Positions 4,125-11,815 of a stretch of DNA of 24,366 bases are shown piece by piece. Made by a program: the position numbers and the translations under genes. Origin of the DNA: a virus; IMG/VR virus record IMGVR_UViG_3300020430_000090, positions 1-24,366 of that record. One strand, given 5' to 3'. Under the pieces are notes generated by a model. It saw only the letters and a program-made list of their open reading frames with translations. It was not told the origin of the DNA and searched no databases. How positions within the stretch are numbered: the first letter of the stretch is position 1; each line of letters opens with the position of its first letter.

Positions 4125-4230
4125 TGAAAGTTGTTCGTTAAATTCATAGATAATATCCTCCTTTATTCTTAATTGTATGTTAGTATAAACTTAATCTTAA
4201 CAAACATTCTTTTTGAACTAATAAGTTACA

Positions 4231-4302
4231 GGTAAAGAGGCTATCGGACGGACGAAAGCTCGCTACTAGCACTAGCTAGGACTGGGATTACCACAAGGCG
4301 AG
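4231..4302. ncRNA. Candidate structured element with pseudoknot-like pairing
   Basis: Three sets of complements occur within 72 nt. GGTAA (4231-4235) pairs with TTACC (4288-4292). CTCGC (4259-4263) pairs with GCGAG (4298-4302). CTAGC (4266-4270) and GCTAG (4275-4279) form a hairpin with a 4-nt loop. The first two pairings cross, which is the geometry of a pseudoknot. The element is purine-rich, unlike the C/T-rich surroundings. Strand and function cannot be decided; it could be an RNA or an origin structure. Confidence 0.35.
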
Positions 4303-4432
4303 TACCCGAGGACTTACGAAAAAGAAAGAATTATTTTTTTTACCGTACGCTCAATGTCCGCCCCTGCCCGAAAACACCCCCCAAACGTACTATAAAAAAG
4401 ATTTTCTTTTTTACTAGAATTGCTTACGCGTA

Positions 4433-4441
4433 TGCTATAAT
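4433..4441 (+). promoter_or_regulatory. Extended -10 promoter for the early block, with ACGCGT box
   Basis: TGCTATAAT is a perfect extended -10 element (TGnTATAAT). ACGCGT (4425-4430) sits just upstream. There is no good -35 hexamer, which extended -10 promoters can lack. Transcription would start near 4448, at the left arm of the nested stems, and give a leader of almost 1 kb before the first gene at 5436. The ACGCGT box recurs before other plus-strand units. Confidence 0.6.
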
Positions 4442-4445
4442 ACAC

Positions 4446-4516
4446 TAGACACTTACTTATACAGGACTTTACAATCCTCCTGTAACACTTTCCCAGTCAA
4501 TGTACAGGTAAGTGTC
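4446..4516 (+). ncRNA. Nested stem-loops at the expected 5' end of the early transcript
   Basis: GACACTTAC (4448-4456) is the exact complement of GTAAGTGTC (4508-4516). Inside it TACAGGA (4460-4466) pairs with TCCTGTA (4478-4484). A second TACAGG copy (4503-4508) could compete for the same CCTGTA (4479-4484), which would open the outer stem. The element begins where the extended -10 promoter would start transcription. It lacks tRNA landmarks. Alternative pairings suggest a regulatory leader or a small RNA. Confidence 0.4.
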
Positions 4517-4919
4517 ACGTCTACATTAAGCTAGTTACCAGTAATTTTTTTTGATATGACATACTCTAACCACCCCACGCCACATTAATATCCCCCGTTA
4601 CGCGTTAACCACCTGTTCATAATTTACATTTAACATACATCTATATGTCCCCCACCCTATATGAATACTCGCTTACGCTCGCATACAATTACTTATCCCA
4701 CCCTGTATTAAAACATACTACATATAGTACCCTTTGTTTATATATGTCTAGTATATGTACTTAAGTTAGTTCCCTATGATTCAAACCTCAGACACTCTCT
4801 ATACTCCTATACTCTTTTCCTATACCACTATATATAGTATACTCTTTATCTTTCACACACTATATCAGTAAGTACCAATGTACATTCGTTCAGTCGTGCC
4901 TCGCATTTGTAACATCCTC

Positions 4920-4949
4920 GGCTCGTTGACACTCGCCTTCGGGCGAGCC
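4920..4949. other. Two mutually exclusive GC-rich hairpins
   Basis: CTCGCC (4932-4937) and GGCGAG (4942-4947) form a 6-bp stem with a stable TTCG loop. GGCTCG (4920-4925) can instead pair with CGAGCC (4944-4949). Both use the same right-hand bases. No T-run follows, so it is not a classic terminator. Confidence 0.4.
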
Positions 4950-5051
4950 ATCTCCTTCACTATTCACTCTAGTCTTTATCCCCGTTGTCCCCATTGTTCT
5001 ACGTTGTTTCATTCAGTGCTCATTGTCTGACGCAAATTCGCACTAGCCTTT

Positions 5052-5197
5052 ACTCGTACGCTCGCCTCGCTCGCTAGCTTCGTAAAGACCATTACACAAC
5101 AGAACAATAGCAAAATTATTCTTCTCCAGTCGTGCGTGCTCACTCGTCAAGAACTCGTCTAGCCGACTCGTTTGCTACGCAATGTAATCTAACTCGC
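5052..5197. repeat. Short ACTCGT/ACTCGC repeats
   Basis: ACTCGT occurs at 5052-5057, 5142-5147, 5153-5158 and 5166-5171, and ACTCGC at 5192-5197. The closest copies are 11 and 13 nt apart, about one helical turn, which resembles protein-binding iterons. TACGCTC words also recur at 5057 and 5213, and further upstream at 4346 and 4674. The repeats are only 6-7 bp, so chance in a biased sequence is possible. Confidence 0.3.
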
Positions 5198-5255
5198 TCG
5201 ACTACTGTTCGCTACGCTCACTCATACGTATCACGCATCTCCTTATACTCAACCC

Positions 5256-5276
5256 GTGCTAGGACAAGCCTAGCAC
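5256..5276. other. Perfect 8-bp hairpin
   Basis: GTGCTAGG (5256-5263) and CCTAGCAC (5269-5276) are exact complements around a 5-nt loop. There is no following T-tract, so termination is unlikely. It could be a protein-binding palindrome or part of the long early leader. Confidence 0.4.
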
Positions 5277-5366
5277 CATCTTCCGTTCCGAAATCTGCTG
5301 CGGGGTTTCGCTCCAGGTAATAATTTTACTGGAACAACTACCATCCTCAACAACTCTCACCAACAT

Positions 5367-5414
5367 AACAACACTCTGAGCAAGTGTGTCAGAGGTTGTT
5401 ATCAGTAGACAACC
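5367..5414 (+). promoter_or_regulatory. Leader hairpins before the first early gene
   Basis: Bases 5367-5379 pair with TCAGAGGTTGTT (5389-5400) over 12 bp with one bulged A. The same arm holds GGTTGT (5394-5399), which can instead pair with ACAACC (5409-5414). The ribosome site AAAGGG (5422-5427) and ATG (5436) follow at once. Competing stems so close to a start suggest control of translation. Confidence 0.42.
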
Positions 5415-5435
5415 GTTACAGAAAGGGTTAAGACA

Positions 5436-5885
5436 ATGGCTAAGGCTAAACTTAATTCAGACATCACACGTTTCCTAGGTGGTGTAACACAAGGTAAACT
5501 AGGAAAAAAGAATATAACCGTGCAAGTCGGTAGAATAGACAACGCTGTATTGGGTACAGATGGTAAACCTAAAGTTAGGTATCGTCTCGTAGTCAATGGT
5601 AAAGAGAGTAAATATCTCATACGTTCTTGGCAAGGTGCATATCAGGTACACCAGATTGTAGCTAGTGGAGACGCTAAAGAAATATTTACTCAAGCAGGAG
5701 ACCTTAAGAAAGGTATGACTGATATCATTGGTACAGATGCTATACGTTCTGTATTCGATTACATTTGTCCTATCAATCTATATTCTAAGAATGAGTTAGC
5801 TAAGAAAGCAGTTAACACTTCTATCAAGGTTGGTAATCCTAAAAAGGATAAAGCATGGGAACAGTTCGTAGAGTTCCAAAACTAA
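5436..5885 (+). CDS. First early-block protein, unknown function
   Basis: A 149-residue soluble protein, MAKAKLNSDITRFLGGV at the start, with a basic, beta-rich N-terminal half (VRYRLVVNGKESKYLIRSW, 47-65) and a helical Lys-rich C-terminal half. I do not recognise the family. AAAGGG eight bases before ATG serves as ribosome site. The gene is a single-gene unit: a long structured leader precedes it and a strong terminator follows. That arrangement, first behind the early promoter, suits an abundant early protein such as a DNA-binding or host-takeover factor, but this is inference. Confidence 0.72.
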   Translation: MAKAKLNSDITRFLGGVTQGKLGKKNITVQVGRIDNAVLGTDGKPKVRYRLVVNGKESKYLIRSWQGAYQVHQIVASGDAKEIFTQAGDLKKGMTDIIGTDAIRSVFDYICPINLYSKNELAKKAVNTSIKVGNPKKDKAWEQFVEFQN

Positions 5886-5892
5886 TACTAAG

Positions 5893-5925
5893 GGTAGGTG
5901 GTGTAAAAGCCATCTACCTTTTTTT
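5893..5925 (+). terminator. Rho-independent terminator
   Basis: GGTAGGTGG (5893-5901) pairs with CCATCTACC (5910-5918), one G-U, loop of 8 nt, followed by seven T (5919-5925). It closes the 5436-5885 unit. Confidence 0.85.
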
Positions 5926-8325: not shown

Positions 8326-8354
8326 GTTTCTACACATAACGGAAACGCATAACT

Positions 8355-8627
8355 GAGCTACTTACAAGTAGGGGTAGGTATTCTATCTCTGTTGCCCTAC
8401 TACTGAAAGTAGGTAGCTCGTACTACATGGGACGCAGCCCTTTCTGTTGATACGTGCATACATAATGTGTTTCGTGTAGTACGAGCTATCTATGAAGTAC
8501 AGGAGTGTGTACACATAAACTACAAGTAAACTGTGAAGTAGGTAGCTTGTAGCACATAGGAAATATCTAAACCACATTCGTGTAGTTTGTTTATTGCTAA
8601 CATACCTGTGTGTTACAAGCTATCTAT
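8355..8627 (+). ncRNA. Three linked stem-loops with covarying tandem 19-bp stems
   Basis: Stem A: 8355-8365 pairs with 8409-8419 (11 bp, one G-U), enclosing AGTAGGG/CCCTACT (8367-8373 with 8395-8401). Stem B: 8409-8427 pairs with 8475-8493, all 19 positions paired, two G-U, 47-nt loop. Stem C: 8538-8556 pairs with 8609-8627, all 19 positions paired, three G-U, 52-nt loop. B and C are diverged copies whose differences keep pairing (C-G to T-A, T-A to C-G, C-G to G-U). Stem A and stem B share arm 8409-8419, so they exclude each other. AAACTACA (8517-8524) can also pair with TGTAGTTT (8581-8588) in the loop of C. The right arm of C ends 4 nt before GAGGAGG, the ribosome site of the gene at 8643. 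An mRNA regulator or processing element is likely. Confidence 0.7.
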
Positions 8628-8642
8628 ATAGAGGAGGAATAT

Positions 8643-8978
8643 ATGATAGAAAAAATACAGTGGATAATCAATCCGATTGCCCACAGAAAAAAGCAAAGGT
8701 TATTTGCTGAGGCCATGTATGAAAAGAATAAGAAAGTTCATGAACAAAATGGATTTTTCTTTATTGATACATTAGTAGATAATGGATTGCCTGATGACTT
8801 ATGGGTATGTGATTTGTGTAACGTTCAGATGAATGTTGAAATACATATACCAGTAGTAGATAACTTAGCAATGTGTGAAACTTGCTATAAGACAAACGAA
8901 AAGTATATCACACCAAAAACAATGGAAAGTGAATGTACTTTAGAATGTTGTGAAATGGAGGAAAAATATGCAACATAA
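8643..8978 (+). CDS. Zinc-ribbon protein downstream of the structured leader
   Basis: A 111-residue protein. A hydrophobic/basic N-terminus (MIEKIQWIINPIAHRKKQRL) is followed by a four-cysteine ribbon C56-x2-C59-x18-C78-x2-C81 and a Cys-rich end (C98, C102, C103). I choose ATG 8643 because GAGGAGGAAT sits just upstream; an in-frame ATG at 8610 lies inside stem C and has no ribosome site. Its translation is a natural target for control by the preceding RNA structures. It overlaps the next gene by 11 nt. Confidence 0.7.
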   Translation: MIEKIQWIINPIAHRKKQRLFAEAMYEKNKKVHEQNGFFFIDTLVDNGLPDDLWVCDLCNVQMNVEIHIPVVDNLAMCETCYKTNEKYITPKTMESECTLECCEMEEKYAT

Positions 8979-9561: not shown

Positions 9562-10248
9562 ATGAATAGTTGGGAACTATTTAACAAAGTGATAGGTACA
9601 TCTGACAGGATTTTACTTTATGGTAAACCTGGTACAGGTAAAACTTATCAAGCAACAAAAGTAAACGTGCCTGAAGGCAAGAATGTATACAGTACTACAT
9701 TGACTATAGATAGTACTGCAGCAGAGATGGTCGGTCATTATATTCCAAACGAGGCAGGTACCTATGATTGGAATGACGGCTTAGCTATACGTGCATGGCG
9801 AGAAGGTACAAGACTAATCATCAACGAGATTGACCACGCAGGTCCTGATGTTACATCAGTACTTCACGCAATCCTTGATGATGCAGACATTGCTAGGTAT
9901 ACATTACCTAACAGCAAGAAAGAAACTGTAATGCCTGCTAAAGGTTTTACTGTTATTGCAACTATGAATGGAACGCCTGATATGCTACCTGAGGCATTGG
10001 CAGACAGGTTCGGAGTTAAGATTGATATTAACACTGTACACCCTGATGCGATTGCTTCACTACCTGAAAACTACAGGTCAGTATACACACAGCGAGATGA
10101 AGATGACATACCTATGTCTATCCGTGCTTGGAAAGAATTTTCTAAGTTGGTAGGTGCAGGTGTAGATATCAAAAGCTCTGCAACTGTGTGTTTTGGTAAA
10201 GATTATGCTAATGACGTTATTGATGCTATAGAGCTACAAGATGTTTAG
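9562..10248 (+). CDS. MoxR/dynein-related-type AAA+ ATPase
   Basis: A compact 228-residue AAA+ protein: Walker A GKPGTGKT (21-28), Walker B-like LIINEID (85-91), sensor 1 VIATMNGTP (131-139) and an arginine-finger-type LADRFGV (146-152). The aspartate usual before the catalytic glutamate in Walker B is Asn here (N88), while E89 is kept. It lacks much of the C-terminal lid. Members of this group form rings that remodel proteins, usually with a VWA-domain partner. The next gene, overlapping by 8 nt, encodes such a partner. Phage copies are often labelled CobS-like, but there is no sign of cobalt chelation here. Confidence 0.85.
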   Translation: MNSWELFNKVIGTSDRILLYGKPGTGKTYQATKVNVPEGKNVYSTTLTIDSTAAEMVGHYIPNEAGTYDWNDGLAIRAWREGTRLIINEIDHAGPDVTSVLHAILDDADIARYTLPNSKKETVMPAKGFTVIATMNGTPDMLPEALADRFGVKIDINTVHPDAIASLPENYRSVYTQRDEDDIPMSIRAWKEFSKLVGAGVDIKSSATVCFGKDYANDVIDAIELQDV

Positions 10249-11704
10249 AAGCAAATCAGTTGAGAGAAAGAGTAAGTCTAATGGCTTACTCAATCTCGCG
10301 TTACAAGACAATGAGTGGTTAATTAAAACTGGTGCTAATGAATACCAAGTAGACCATGGTAACAAAGATATATTGCTGCCGTTGGATTTGGTTAATGCTA
10401 ATACAAAGCAAACGTTCAACAAAGTAATGAAGATACTAGCTTTAGCTGACGCTAAGTATGGCAAAGCACCGAAGATGGTAGGAGTAAAACATCTTCAACC
10501 ATACTATATAGATATGGCAATGATGTTATCTGTGTATTGGTATACTCAGAAGAAAGCATTTCCAAAATTCGACATTCCAAGAAGTATGCAATTTTATACT
10601 GCTTGGATGAACAATGATGGCAAAGCAGAAGGCATTGCTGAAATGGTAAAGAATAATGTAACACTGAAGTTCATAGTCAAAGCAATGATTAATGACCCGT
10701 GGTTGGCATTACACGAATCACGATACAAAACTAACATACCTTATCTATTGTCTTACAATGTAGAATCTAGTACCTTTTCTAATTTAGATAAAGGTGAGAT
10801 GAAGTCACGTGGTAAAGAGCTATGCAGGATTGTAGCTACTGCAGTTGAAATGACAATGAGTGTTCGTAAAGATGCAAAGAAATTCCCTACAGCAAGGTTG
10901 AAAGAAGTTGCTCAGTACTTACACGACATGTGTGAAGATAACAATTTACTATATCATTCTATGCCTAGTGAAGCTATGGAAGGAATAGGAGATATAGAAA
11001 TTGATTTGATGGGAATGAAAGACTTTTCAGACGAGAACAATACCAATCTCGAAAGTGCAATAAACAATGCAATGAGAAGAGATGGCACAGATGTTAGATG
11101 GGCAAAGATGGAGATATCTTATCCATTGCTAGAGAAGTCTTTACCTAACAAACTATTGGGTAAGTCAAAGAAGTACAGTGATATGGGTGTTGCACCTAGA
11201 GCTATGCATAGAGACTTGACTGATAAGAAAGTATTTACTTCTAAGAGTAAAAGAAAATCAGGTACAGTTCTTATAGATGTGAGTGGCTCTATGTCATTTA
11301 CCGAAGAAGATGTACAAGAAATCATTGAAACATTACCTGCTAGTACAGTAGCAATATACTCAGGTGATAGTGATGCTGATGCCAAAGAACCACATAAGGT
11401 TAAAGGAACCCTTCGTATTGTTGGTAAGAATGGTAGATACGTTAAGTACATACCTGACCACGGGTTGCACAATCTTATTGATGGTCCTGCTATTGAGTGG
11501 TTATCGAAACAAGCCGAGCCAAGAATACTTGTAAGCGATTTACAATTTACAGGTATTGATTACGCTAATCTAAAGTATGGTGAGGTTAGCTGTTCAGCAG
11601 AACTAATTACTGAATGTATGCAAATGATTGCAACTAAGAATATCATACCTATTCCAAATATAGATAAAGCAAAAGAATGGGTGGTTAAGTACAGAAACGC
11701 TTAA
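10241..11704 (+). CDS. VWA-domain protein, partner of the AAA+ ATPase
   Basis: A 487-residue protein. The C-terminal third is a von Willebrand A domain with the metal-binding motif DVSGSMS (346-352), a possible threonine/aspartate region around 411-418 and ILVSDLQFTG (429-438) with D433. The N-terminal 330 residues are helical with no recognised domain. The order AAA+ then VWA with an 8-nt overlap is that of MoxR-VWA chaperone pairs and CobS-CobT. The VWA domain usually binds the client or docks on the ring through Mg2+. It ends the operon; a hairpin and terminator follow. Confidence 0.85.
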   Translation: MFRSKSVERKSKSNGLLNLALQDNEWLIKTGANEYQVDHGNKDILLPLDLVNANTKQTFNKVMKILALADAKYGKAPKMVGVKHLQPYYIDMAMMLSVYWYTQKKAFPKFDIPRSMQFYTAWMNNDGKAEGIAEMVKNNVTLKFIVKAMINDPWLALHESRYKTNIPYLLSYNVESSTFSNLDKGEMKSRGKELCRIVATAVEMTMSVRKDAKKFPTARLKEVAQYLHDMCEDNNLLYHSMPSEAMEGIGDIEIDLMGMKDFSDENNTNLESAINNAMRRDGTDVRWAKMEISYPLLEKSLPNKLLGKSKKYSDMGVAPRAMHRDLTDKKVFTSKSKRKSGTVLIDVSGSMSFTEEDVQEIIETLPASTVAIYSGDSDADAKEPHKVKGTLRIVGKNGRYVKYIPDHGLHNLIDGPAIEWLSKQAEPRILVSDLQFTGIDYANLKYGEVSCSAELITECMQMIATKNIIPIPNIDKAKEWVVKYRNA

Positions 11705-11780: not shown

Positions 11781-11815
11781 ACGGACACGCAAGTGCTCGT
11801 GTCCCGTTTTTTTTT
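11781..11815 (+). terminator. Rho-independent terminator
   Basis: ACGGACACG (11781-11789) pairs with CGTGTCCCGT (11798-11807) with one bulge, loop of 8 nt, and nine T follow (11807-11815). An earlier AACGGG could give an alternative outer pairing. It ends the AAA+/VWA transcript. Confidence 0.85.

Follow-up and report, generated by a model that had tools for sequence, protein, structure and literature searches.

A hairpin array precedes a small gene in an uncultured virus

The window, meaning the whole stretch of DNA analyzed here, is the 24,366-base uncultured virus record IMGVR_UViG_3300020430_000090, which carries a hairpin array in a stretch that does not code for protein. The array starts 30 nt past the stop codon of the upstream gene, leaving little space for a promoter of its own, and it is part of a rightward unit whose limits are terminator-like sites near 5890-5921 and 11783-11804. 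All of its parts are placed on the plus strand. Upstream of the first arm stands the motif GAAACGCA (8342-8349); in 9 of 89 hairpin groups, GAAACGC occurs no more than 60 nt 5′ of the first arm, against 0.003 expected per 60 nt. The first arm, Q0 (GAGCTACTTAC, 8355-8365), is followed by hairpin A (8409-8493), built from the 5′ arm R1 (8409-8428), a loop module and the 3′ arm Q1 (8474-8493). A linker module (8494-8537) then leads from Q1 to hairpin B (8538-8627), built from R2 (8538-8557), which is the consensus arm of the family, a second loop module and Q2 (8608-8627), the final arm ahead of the ribosome-binding site. From the end of stem B at 8627 it is 4 nt to the Shine-Dalgarno sequence AGGAGG (8632-8637), and the ATG at 8643 opens a gene (8643-8978) encoding a protein of 111 aa with two CxxC pairs, which has no Pfam or PHROG match and has relatives in 9 loci.

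The first-pass annotation of this DNA had described two 19-bp stems, 8409-8427 with 8475-8493 and 8538-8556 with 8609-8627. With G·U counted, all 19 of 19 positions pair in both, and both stems lengthen to at least 20 bp (20 of 20 pairs in each hairpin). The three pair differences that it listed between the copies were also found as described (C8419-G8483 against T8548-A8617, C8423-G8479 against G8552·T8613, and T8424-A8478 against C8553-G8612), as were the 11 bp formed by 8355-8365 with 8409-8419 and the short distance from the last stem to the ribosome-binding site. A perfect 19-bp stem arose in 0 of 301 dinucleotide shuffles of 8326-8642, and the region folds more stably than its shuffles, with z = -6.2 on the plus strand and z = -2.5 on the minus strand.

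Two further regions of the window were recorded. Between divergent gene blocks, positions 4147-5436 (about 1.3 kb) hold no convincing genes and contain an imperfect inverted repeat (4441-4463/4501-4523). Positions 9562-11704 carry an AAA ATPase gene, which we take to be MoxR-like, followed by a gene of unknown function, and this pair is conserved across the phage group.

The hairpins form a family with compensated stems

Relatives were reached from the proteins encoded next to the array in a viral contig collection, and a search with a 16-base arm gave 79 contigs. We then described the hairpin by a 9-nt outer arm, in which 2 mismatches were tolerated, and by a partner no more than 180 nt away with which 18 or more of 20 positions pair. 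This descriptor matched 195 hairpins on 83 of the 101 contigs scanned, all from uncultured phages, while the same 0.97 Mb, dinucleotide-shuffled three times, gave 2 matches in total (less than 1 per run), none above 18 pairs. The outer 9-10 pairs, GTAGGTAGCT/AGCTATCTAT, are near-invariant across unrelated loops, and G·U wobbles are conserved at stem positions 1 and 5 and, less strictly, at 15 and 20. The inner ten pairs occur in 40 distinct sequences, of which 98.9% of positions are paired against 80.8% with the 3′ arms permuted; the descriptor itself requires pairing and biases this percentage upward, but the bias does not explain the variety of compensated pairs. In an alignment of 32 hairpin stems, changes on both sides were observed at 11 of 21 pairs (shuffled mean 6.0), and the covariation score was 0.409 against 0.181 for shuffled alignments, with 0 of 500 shuffles as high, in controls that leave sequence relatedness in.

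These compensatory changes in relatives back the earlier claim that the RNA structure is under selection. The first-pass annotation had taken the differences between two copies in one genome as direct evidence for this; selection stands, but the two copies alone are weak evidence, and the proof comes from the relatives. It had also named relatives whose arms lose complementarity as evidence against its claim; this was checked, and in the relatives complementarity is retained.

Hairpin A scores 69.9 bits on the plus strand and 42.1 on the minus strand with the hairpin covariance model, and hairpin B 75.4 and 44.9 bits, the window being among the sequences from which this model (model R2) was built. 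Across the family, the hairpin model scores about 25 bits higher on the gene strand than on the opposite strand. Where the orientation of the element could be judged against both long flanking genes, it agreed with both in 110 cases, with 9, 6 and 5 cases in the mixed or opposite classes. Because the G·U wobbles hold fixed positions, the scores are strand-specific and the elements are co-oriented with genes, we read the array as a coding-strand RNA. A further effect of the wobbles would be to keep the DNA from being a perfect palindrome.

Arms alternate and the modules between them are exchanged

The spacers enclosed by the hairpins measure 45-50 nt in the window and from 10 to about 180 nt across the family, and long noncoding spans hold up to 4 hairpins in succession. 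When both arm types were scored along the contigs, the order of neighboring arms was RQ in 162 cases, QR in 161, QQ in 22 and RR in 15. Thus complementary 10-nt arms alternate strictly, in the pattern Q-x-R-x-Q-x-R-x-Q, and many arrays begin with an extra Q arm about 43 nt 5′ of the first hairpin, which in the window is 8355-8365.

The loops and linkers comprise 213 distinct segments, 39 families of which have at least two members; these families are common to several phages and keep one orientation throughout. In 13 module pairs, one member is a loop (R-x-Q) and the other a linker (Q-x-R). One of these pairs includes the linker of the window (8494-8537), whose counterpart in L081 (89% over 46 nt) forms the loop between the R and Q arms of a hairpin. 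The stretches between the arms are separately folding, exchangeable modules, and the arms look like connectors joining these parts. The earlier view that only the stems had been kept does not hold, as loops and linkers belong to module families that recur among phages. The description of the array as duplicated was right in that hairpins are repeated, but it is too narrow for a modular array with alternating arms, exchangeable modules and one conserved core.

Invertible DNA segments were considered and rejected: 146 module pairs lay on the same strand, and the opposite strand gave self-palindromes only. Related loop modules in L045 (3224-3367), L035 (2059-2216) and L044 (reverse strand, 11114) contain a stretch resembling a tRNA T arm (GTAGGTTCAAATCCTACC in L045), in which ARAGORN finds no tRNA; the program likewise reported no tRNA or tmRNA in the window or in 60 relatives.

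A conserved core domain is closed by the first Q arm and R1

The first Q arm belongs to a domain of its own. In the window, this core (8356-8418) runs from Q0 through AAGTA (8366-8370), the 5′ strand of helix P2 (8374-8378), the loop CTCTGTT (8387-8393; consensus CCCTGTT), the 3′ strand of P2 (8396-8400) and GAAA (8405-8408) to R1, whose outer 10 nt are common to hairpin A and the closing helix of the core. As RNA, the general layout reads Q, AAGUA, two pairs, P2, a loop with CCCUGUU, P2′, two pairs, GAAA and R. In 24 sequences, P2 is 97.5% paired and each of its 5 pairs shows changes on both sides. The AGUA/GAA internal loop presumably resembles the bulged-G motif of the sarcin-ricin loop and loop E. 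The core model (model R1) scores 69.9 bits on the window, E 2.5e-14 over 0.97 Mb, with the window among the sequences used to build it. A single strong copy (at least 66 bits) was found in 16 of 30 records and two copies in none, besides two weaker matches.

In three genomes the closing helix is swapped for an unrelated sequence that still pairs: TAGTGTCTAT/GTAGGCACTA in a phage contig from an Actinomycetota MAG, where the core is nested in an R-Q hairpin, GAAGCCGTAG/CTACGGCTTT in L096 and AAAGTATCTAG/CTAGATACTTT in L106. Counting these replacements, the closing helix is paired throughout (100%), and changes on both sides are seen at five of its pairs; the core model is itself biased toward a closing helix that pairs, which leaves some selection bias in these values. 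Since unrelated replacement helices stay paired, this comparative evidence indicates that the core requires a closing helix, and since an unrelated helix closes it in three genomes, that it folds by itself. The competing stem at 8355-8365 proposed by the first-pass annotation is thus a real pairing, and no accident: it closes a conserved domain of its own, which had been overlooked.

The core of L106 (7182-7255) lies in an AT-rich private stem with a T run directly after it and resembles an intrinsic terminator, the lone hint of transcription control that we saw. Pairing of the core loop (8378-8391) with the Shine-Dalgarno region (8629-8641) was rejected as a family feature, as the family mean was -7.4 against -7.0 ± 0.25 for mispaired genomes; the window's own duplex, at -13.9 kcal/mol, was the strongest among the 22 genomes tested.

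R1 has two selected and mutually exclusive partners

In the window and in most relatives, R1 is both the closing strand of the core and the 5′ strand of the long hairpin. That the two pairings of 8409-8419 exclude each other had been pointed out before, and both partners show compensatory change in relatives. In L079/L089, R reads GTTGATAGCT, and the upstream Q (AGCTATCAAC) and the downstream Q (AGCTATTAAT) both carry the matching A. In L090/L113, R reads GCAGGTAGCT, and at one position both Q arms carry the matching G; the downstream Q has another mismatch. The first Q arms, which belong to no hairpin, differ from the others at two wobble positions, where G-C pairs are present in 30 of 43 first Q arms against 14 of 135 hairpin Q arms (Fisher p 1e-13, uncorrected for relatedness). 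Their outer helix with R is a median 1.2 kcal/mol stronger than that of the hairpin's own Q. From comparison of related sequences, the structure and its competing pairings are well supported.

In the nearest-neighbor model, the hairpin state is ahead by about 2.5-13 kcal/mol in most groups with one hairpin and by 18.1 kcal/mol in the window, where two register steps are involved and non-canonical stacking is not counted. Because the hairpin state is thermodynamically ahead, switching would need outside help or kinetics.

The array usually ends directly before a start codon

In 52 of 96 hairpin groups, the last arm is followed by a strict Shine-Dalgarno sequence and a start codon within 40 nt, compared with 3.3% at random positions; a loose criterion gave 68 of 96. 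The median distance from the last arm to the Shine-Dalgarno sequence is 6.5 nt. As it usually stands directly before their starts, the array probably controls the reading of small viral genes. One conserved downstream target gene was sought and rejected, the downstream proteins falling into more than 20 unrelated small families.

Solitary hairpins also occur, many of them without the core and often without the first Q, and in each of the contigs L083, L088, L058 and L069 they stand 5′ of several different genes. In these four and in L092, the solitary hairpins lie before different genes within a few kb, and several share the flanks CCTGTTTTAAGAGGGTATT upstream and AGCAGAAAAGGGGTAA downstream. 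A separate arrangement was observed in L067 and L110 (reverse strand): in L067, a strong terminator-like stem with a T run follows the last hairpin, and L110 has the same flank; both are unlike the arrays that run into a gene.

The carriers form one phage group, probably of marine Actinomycetota

The terminases of the carriers are 52-64% identical to that of the window, which places the carriers in one phage group. The nearest isolates to this group are Streptomyces phages, at about 26%. Scanning GTDB with the terminase alignment, we found phage contigs inside MAGs, including an Actinomycetota MAG of 1.1 Mb, whose isolate name we take to be in the style of ocean-sampling MAGs, and a Gammaproteobacteria MAG. 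Models built without these contigs detected hairpins in 3 of 3 MAG contigs and the core in both Actinomycetota contigs. In the class of the Actinomycetota MAG, none of the other 295 genomes had the core, and 185 genomes of the Gammaproteobacteria MAG's class, a set without a positive control, gave no match to it either. The exact arm pattern had no match in the GTDB genomes searched, and a DNA search of 50,697 records of isolated phages gave none either. The carriers are uncultured, probably mostly marine viruses, and their host is probably a marine Actinomycetota, with co-binning short of proof and one related contig in a Gammaproteobacteria MAG. In G030:C30 (58,316 bases), two copies of the phage array lie 43,859 bases apart, which would suit an assembly that ran beyond the end of a phage genome of about 43.9 kb, circular or concatemeric.

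A tentative model of a strand-competing leader RNA and its alternatives

Our tentative model is that the array belongs to a new class of modular, strand-competing cis leader RNA, which would act within a rightward polycistronic message and control early accessory genes. By default, hairpins A and B would form. R1, as the shared strand, can join Q1 in the long hairpin A or Q0 in the closed core. If the core formed first during transcription, or if a ligand or protein stabilized it, the closed core would take the outer half of R1 from Q1, the freed outer half of Q1 would pair with R2, and Q2, which adjoins the ribosome-binding site, would be left single-stranded. The output would be a changed translation or stability of the downstream accessory gene. 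The switching and this output are inferred. Several observations weigh against the model: the downstream genes are unrelated from phage to phage, unlike those of a metabolite riboswitch; the core is missing from many solitary hairpins, as often is the first Q; at least three genomes have a private closing stem on the core and hence no competition; and the hairpin state is favored by the 18.1 kcal/mol calculated for the window. A bolder version, which we regard as rather improbable, is an RNA relay. Because the outer arms are interchangeable and the inner stems private, the whole chain could shift its pairing by one register, so that once the core captured R1 at the 5′ end, the final arm by the ribosome-binding site would be released and a signal would have passed through any number of inserted modules, and phages could extend or rewire the chain by recombining modules at the shared arms.

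The alternatives each account for part of the data. Perfect stems of at least 20 bp right before the ribosome-binding sites of many unrelated genes, in an array inside a polycistronic unit with scant room for a promoter, are what would be expected of RNase III processing sites or 5′-end stabilizing hairpins in the style of the T7 early message, in which the stem is cut or shields the new 5′ end before the next ribosome-binding site. The enzyme would have to be that of the host, because a search of 18 of these phage records gave no RNase III domain, and a phage-encoded enzyme was rejected on that basis. We consider such processing a minority possibility, as it leaves unexplained the conserved arm sequence, the fixed wobbles, the conserved core, the first Q arm and the swapped modules. 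The near-invariant outer 10 bp, with their fixed G·U pairs and unrelated loops, could instead be bound by a phage or host protein that recognizes the outer stem (GUAGGUAGC/GCUAUCUAU) and jointly controls a regulon of accessory genes, and the solitary copies before different genes of one contig (L083, L088, L058, L069) would fit this. No candidate protein was found, and simple binding needs neither strict arm alternation nor a first Q, which makes this reading, too, rather improbable.

Two other readings depart from control of the adjoining gene by its leader. The single strong core copy in each core-bearing record, the long noncoding spans with up to 4 successive hairpins, and the terminator-like stem and T run, or the same flank, after the arrays of L067 and L110 would suit a free-standing, trans-acting ornate noncoding RNA in the sense of GOLLD and ROOL, with a conserved core and variable decoration. 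So many groups enter a ribosome-binding site directly (68 of 96 loosely, 52 strictly) that we hold this to be quite unlikely, and the array matches neither GOLLD, ROOL nor OLE in Rfam. Least probable by far is a DNA-level element, such as an operator, promoter or recombination site, as proposed for the ESAS, which likewise are inverted repeats that precede start codons in actinobacteriophages (PMC3203893; PMC11373665). The clear exchange of modules between genomes speaks for it, but the compensatory changes including G·U pairs, the strong strand asymmetry, the lack of any inverted module and loops of 10 to 180 nt largely refute this reading. A promoter or operator was rejected separately, as the region has no excess of promoters and the inner-stem covariation erases any hexamer.

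Whichever reading applies, the array represents a large class of structured RNA outside Rfam, in a phage group without a cultured member in the collection searched. If the alternating arms do work as a switch or relay, nature would have assembled a modular RNA circuit by recombination, from exchangeable parts and a fixed connector. Even if the hairpins serve processing or protein binding only, they show a phage giving one control element to many unrelated accessory genes. Our work supplies covariance models and clear mutants for testing these possibilities.

Comparison with known systems

Of the 4227 families in Rfam 15, none matched the window or 14 relatives (143 kb) at gathering thresholds, and at E up to 3 there were sub-threshold matches only, for instance to a microRNA hairpin model. 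The earlier statement that the array fits no known class is borne out by this, and literature searches found no prior description of it. Each known family that could be tested has one or more defining features that the array lacks. Long stems between phage genes, 5′ of ribosome-binding sites, are known from the intercistronic RNase III sites of the T7 type. The array shares these stems and differs by its shared alternating arms and single-copy core; in the T7 sites, as far as we know, neither alternating arms nor a single-copy core occur, and no arm sequence is strictly shared.

By position, the nearest system is the ESAS of Cluster K mycobacteriophages, inverted repeats upstream of the start codons of unrelated non-structural genes (PMC3203893; PMC11373665). 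Their arms are 17 bp and their spacers mostly 4-13 bp, and the authors who described them saw little support for a hairpin in the mRNA; a 13-bp SAS, GGGATAGGAGCCC, adjoins the repeats (PMC3203893). A later interpretation makes them SigA promoters combined with an operator (PMC11373665). Both systems place an inverted repeat with a variable spacer just 5′ of unrelated small non-structural genes in actinobacteriophages, as the 52 of 96 hairpin groups directly before a Shine-Dalgarno sequence and start codon (3.3% at random) illustrate for ours. In contrast to the ESAS, the array has arms of at least 20 bp, spacers of 45-50 nt in the window and up to about 180 nt elsewhere, pairing backed by covariation, alternating arms and a core domain, and the ribosome-binding site of the window, GAGGAGGAATATATG, does not read GGGATAGGAGCCC.

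Among phage RNAs, the HK022 put antiterminator (PMC9378689) is likewise a cis hairpin RNA of phage early transcription, a conceivable role here. Judged from its description, it is set apart from the array, which lies before a ribosome-binding site inside an operon and has alternating arms and modules. GOLLD and ROOL are large structured phage RNAs of unknown function, and GOLLD combines a conserved with a variable region (PMC12286853). The array is also a large structured phage RNA, and differs from them in its modular shared-arm design, in having no nearby tRNA genes and in its lack of an Rfam match.

By principle, the nearest systems are riboswitches and strand-competing leaders, including tandem forms (PMC9481103), in which a closing strand is shared with a downstream hairpin near the ribosome-binding site. 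The array has this feature, with a conserved folded domain, covarying helices (P2 and the closing helix) and an R1 common to hairpin A, as judged from the alignments. It differs in matching no known aptamer, in its unrelated downstream genes, which give no hint of a ligand, and in reusing the same arm while swapping modules. What is new is the RNA class together with its alternating-arm architecture, and its function may prove to be of a known kind.
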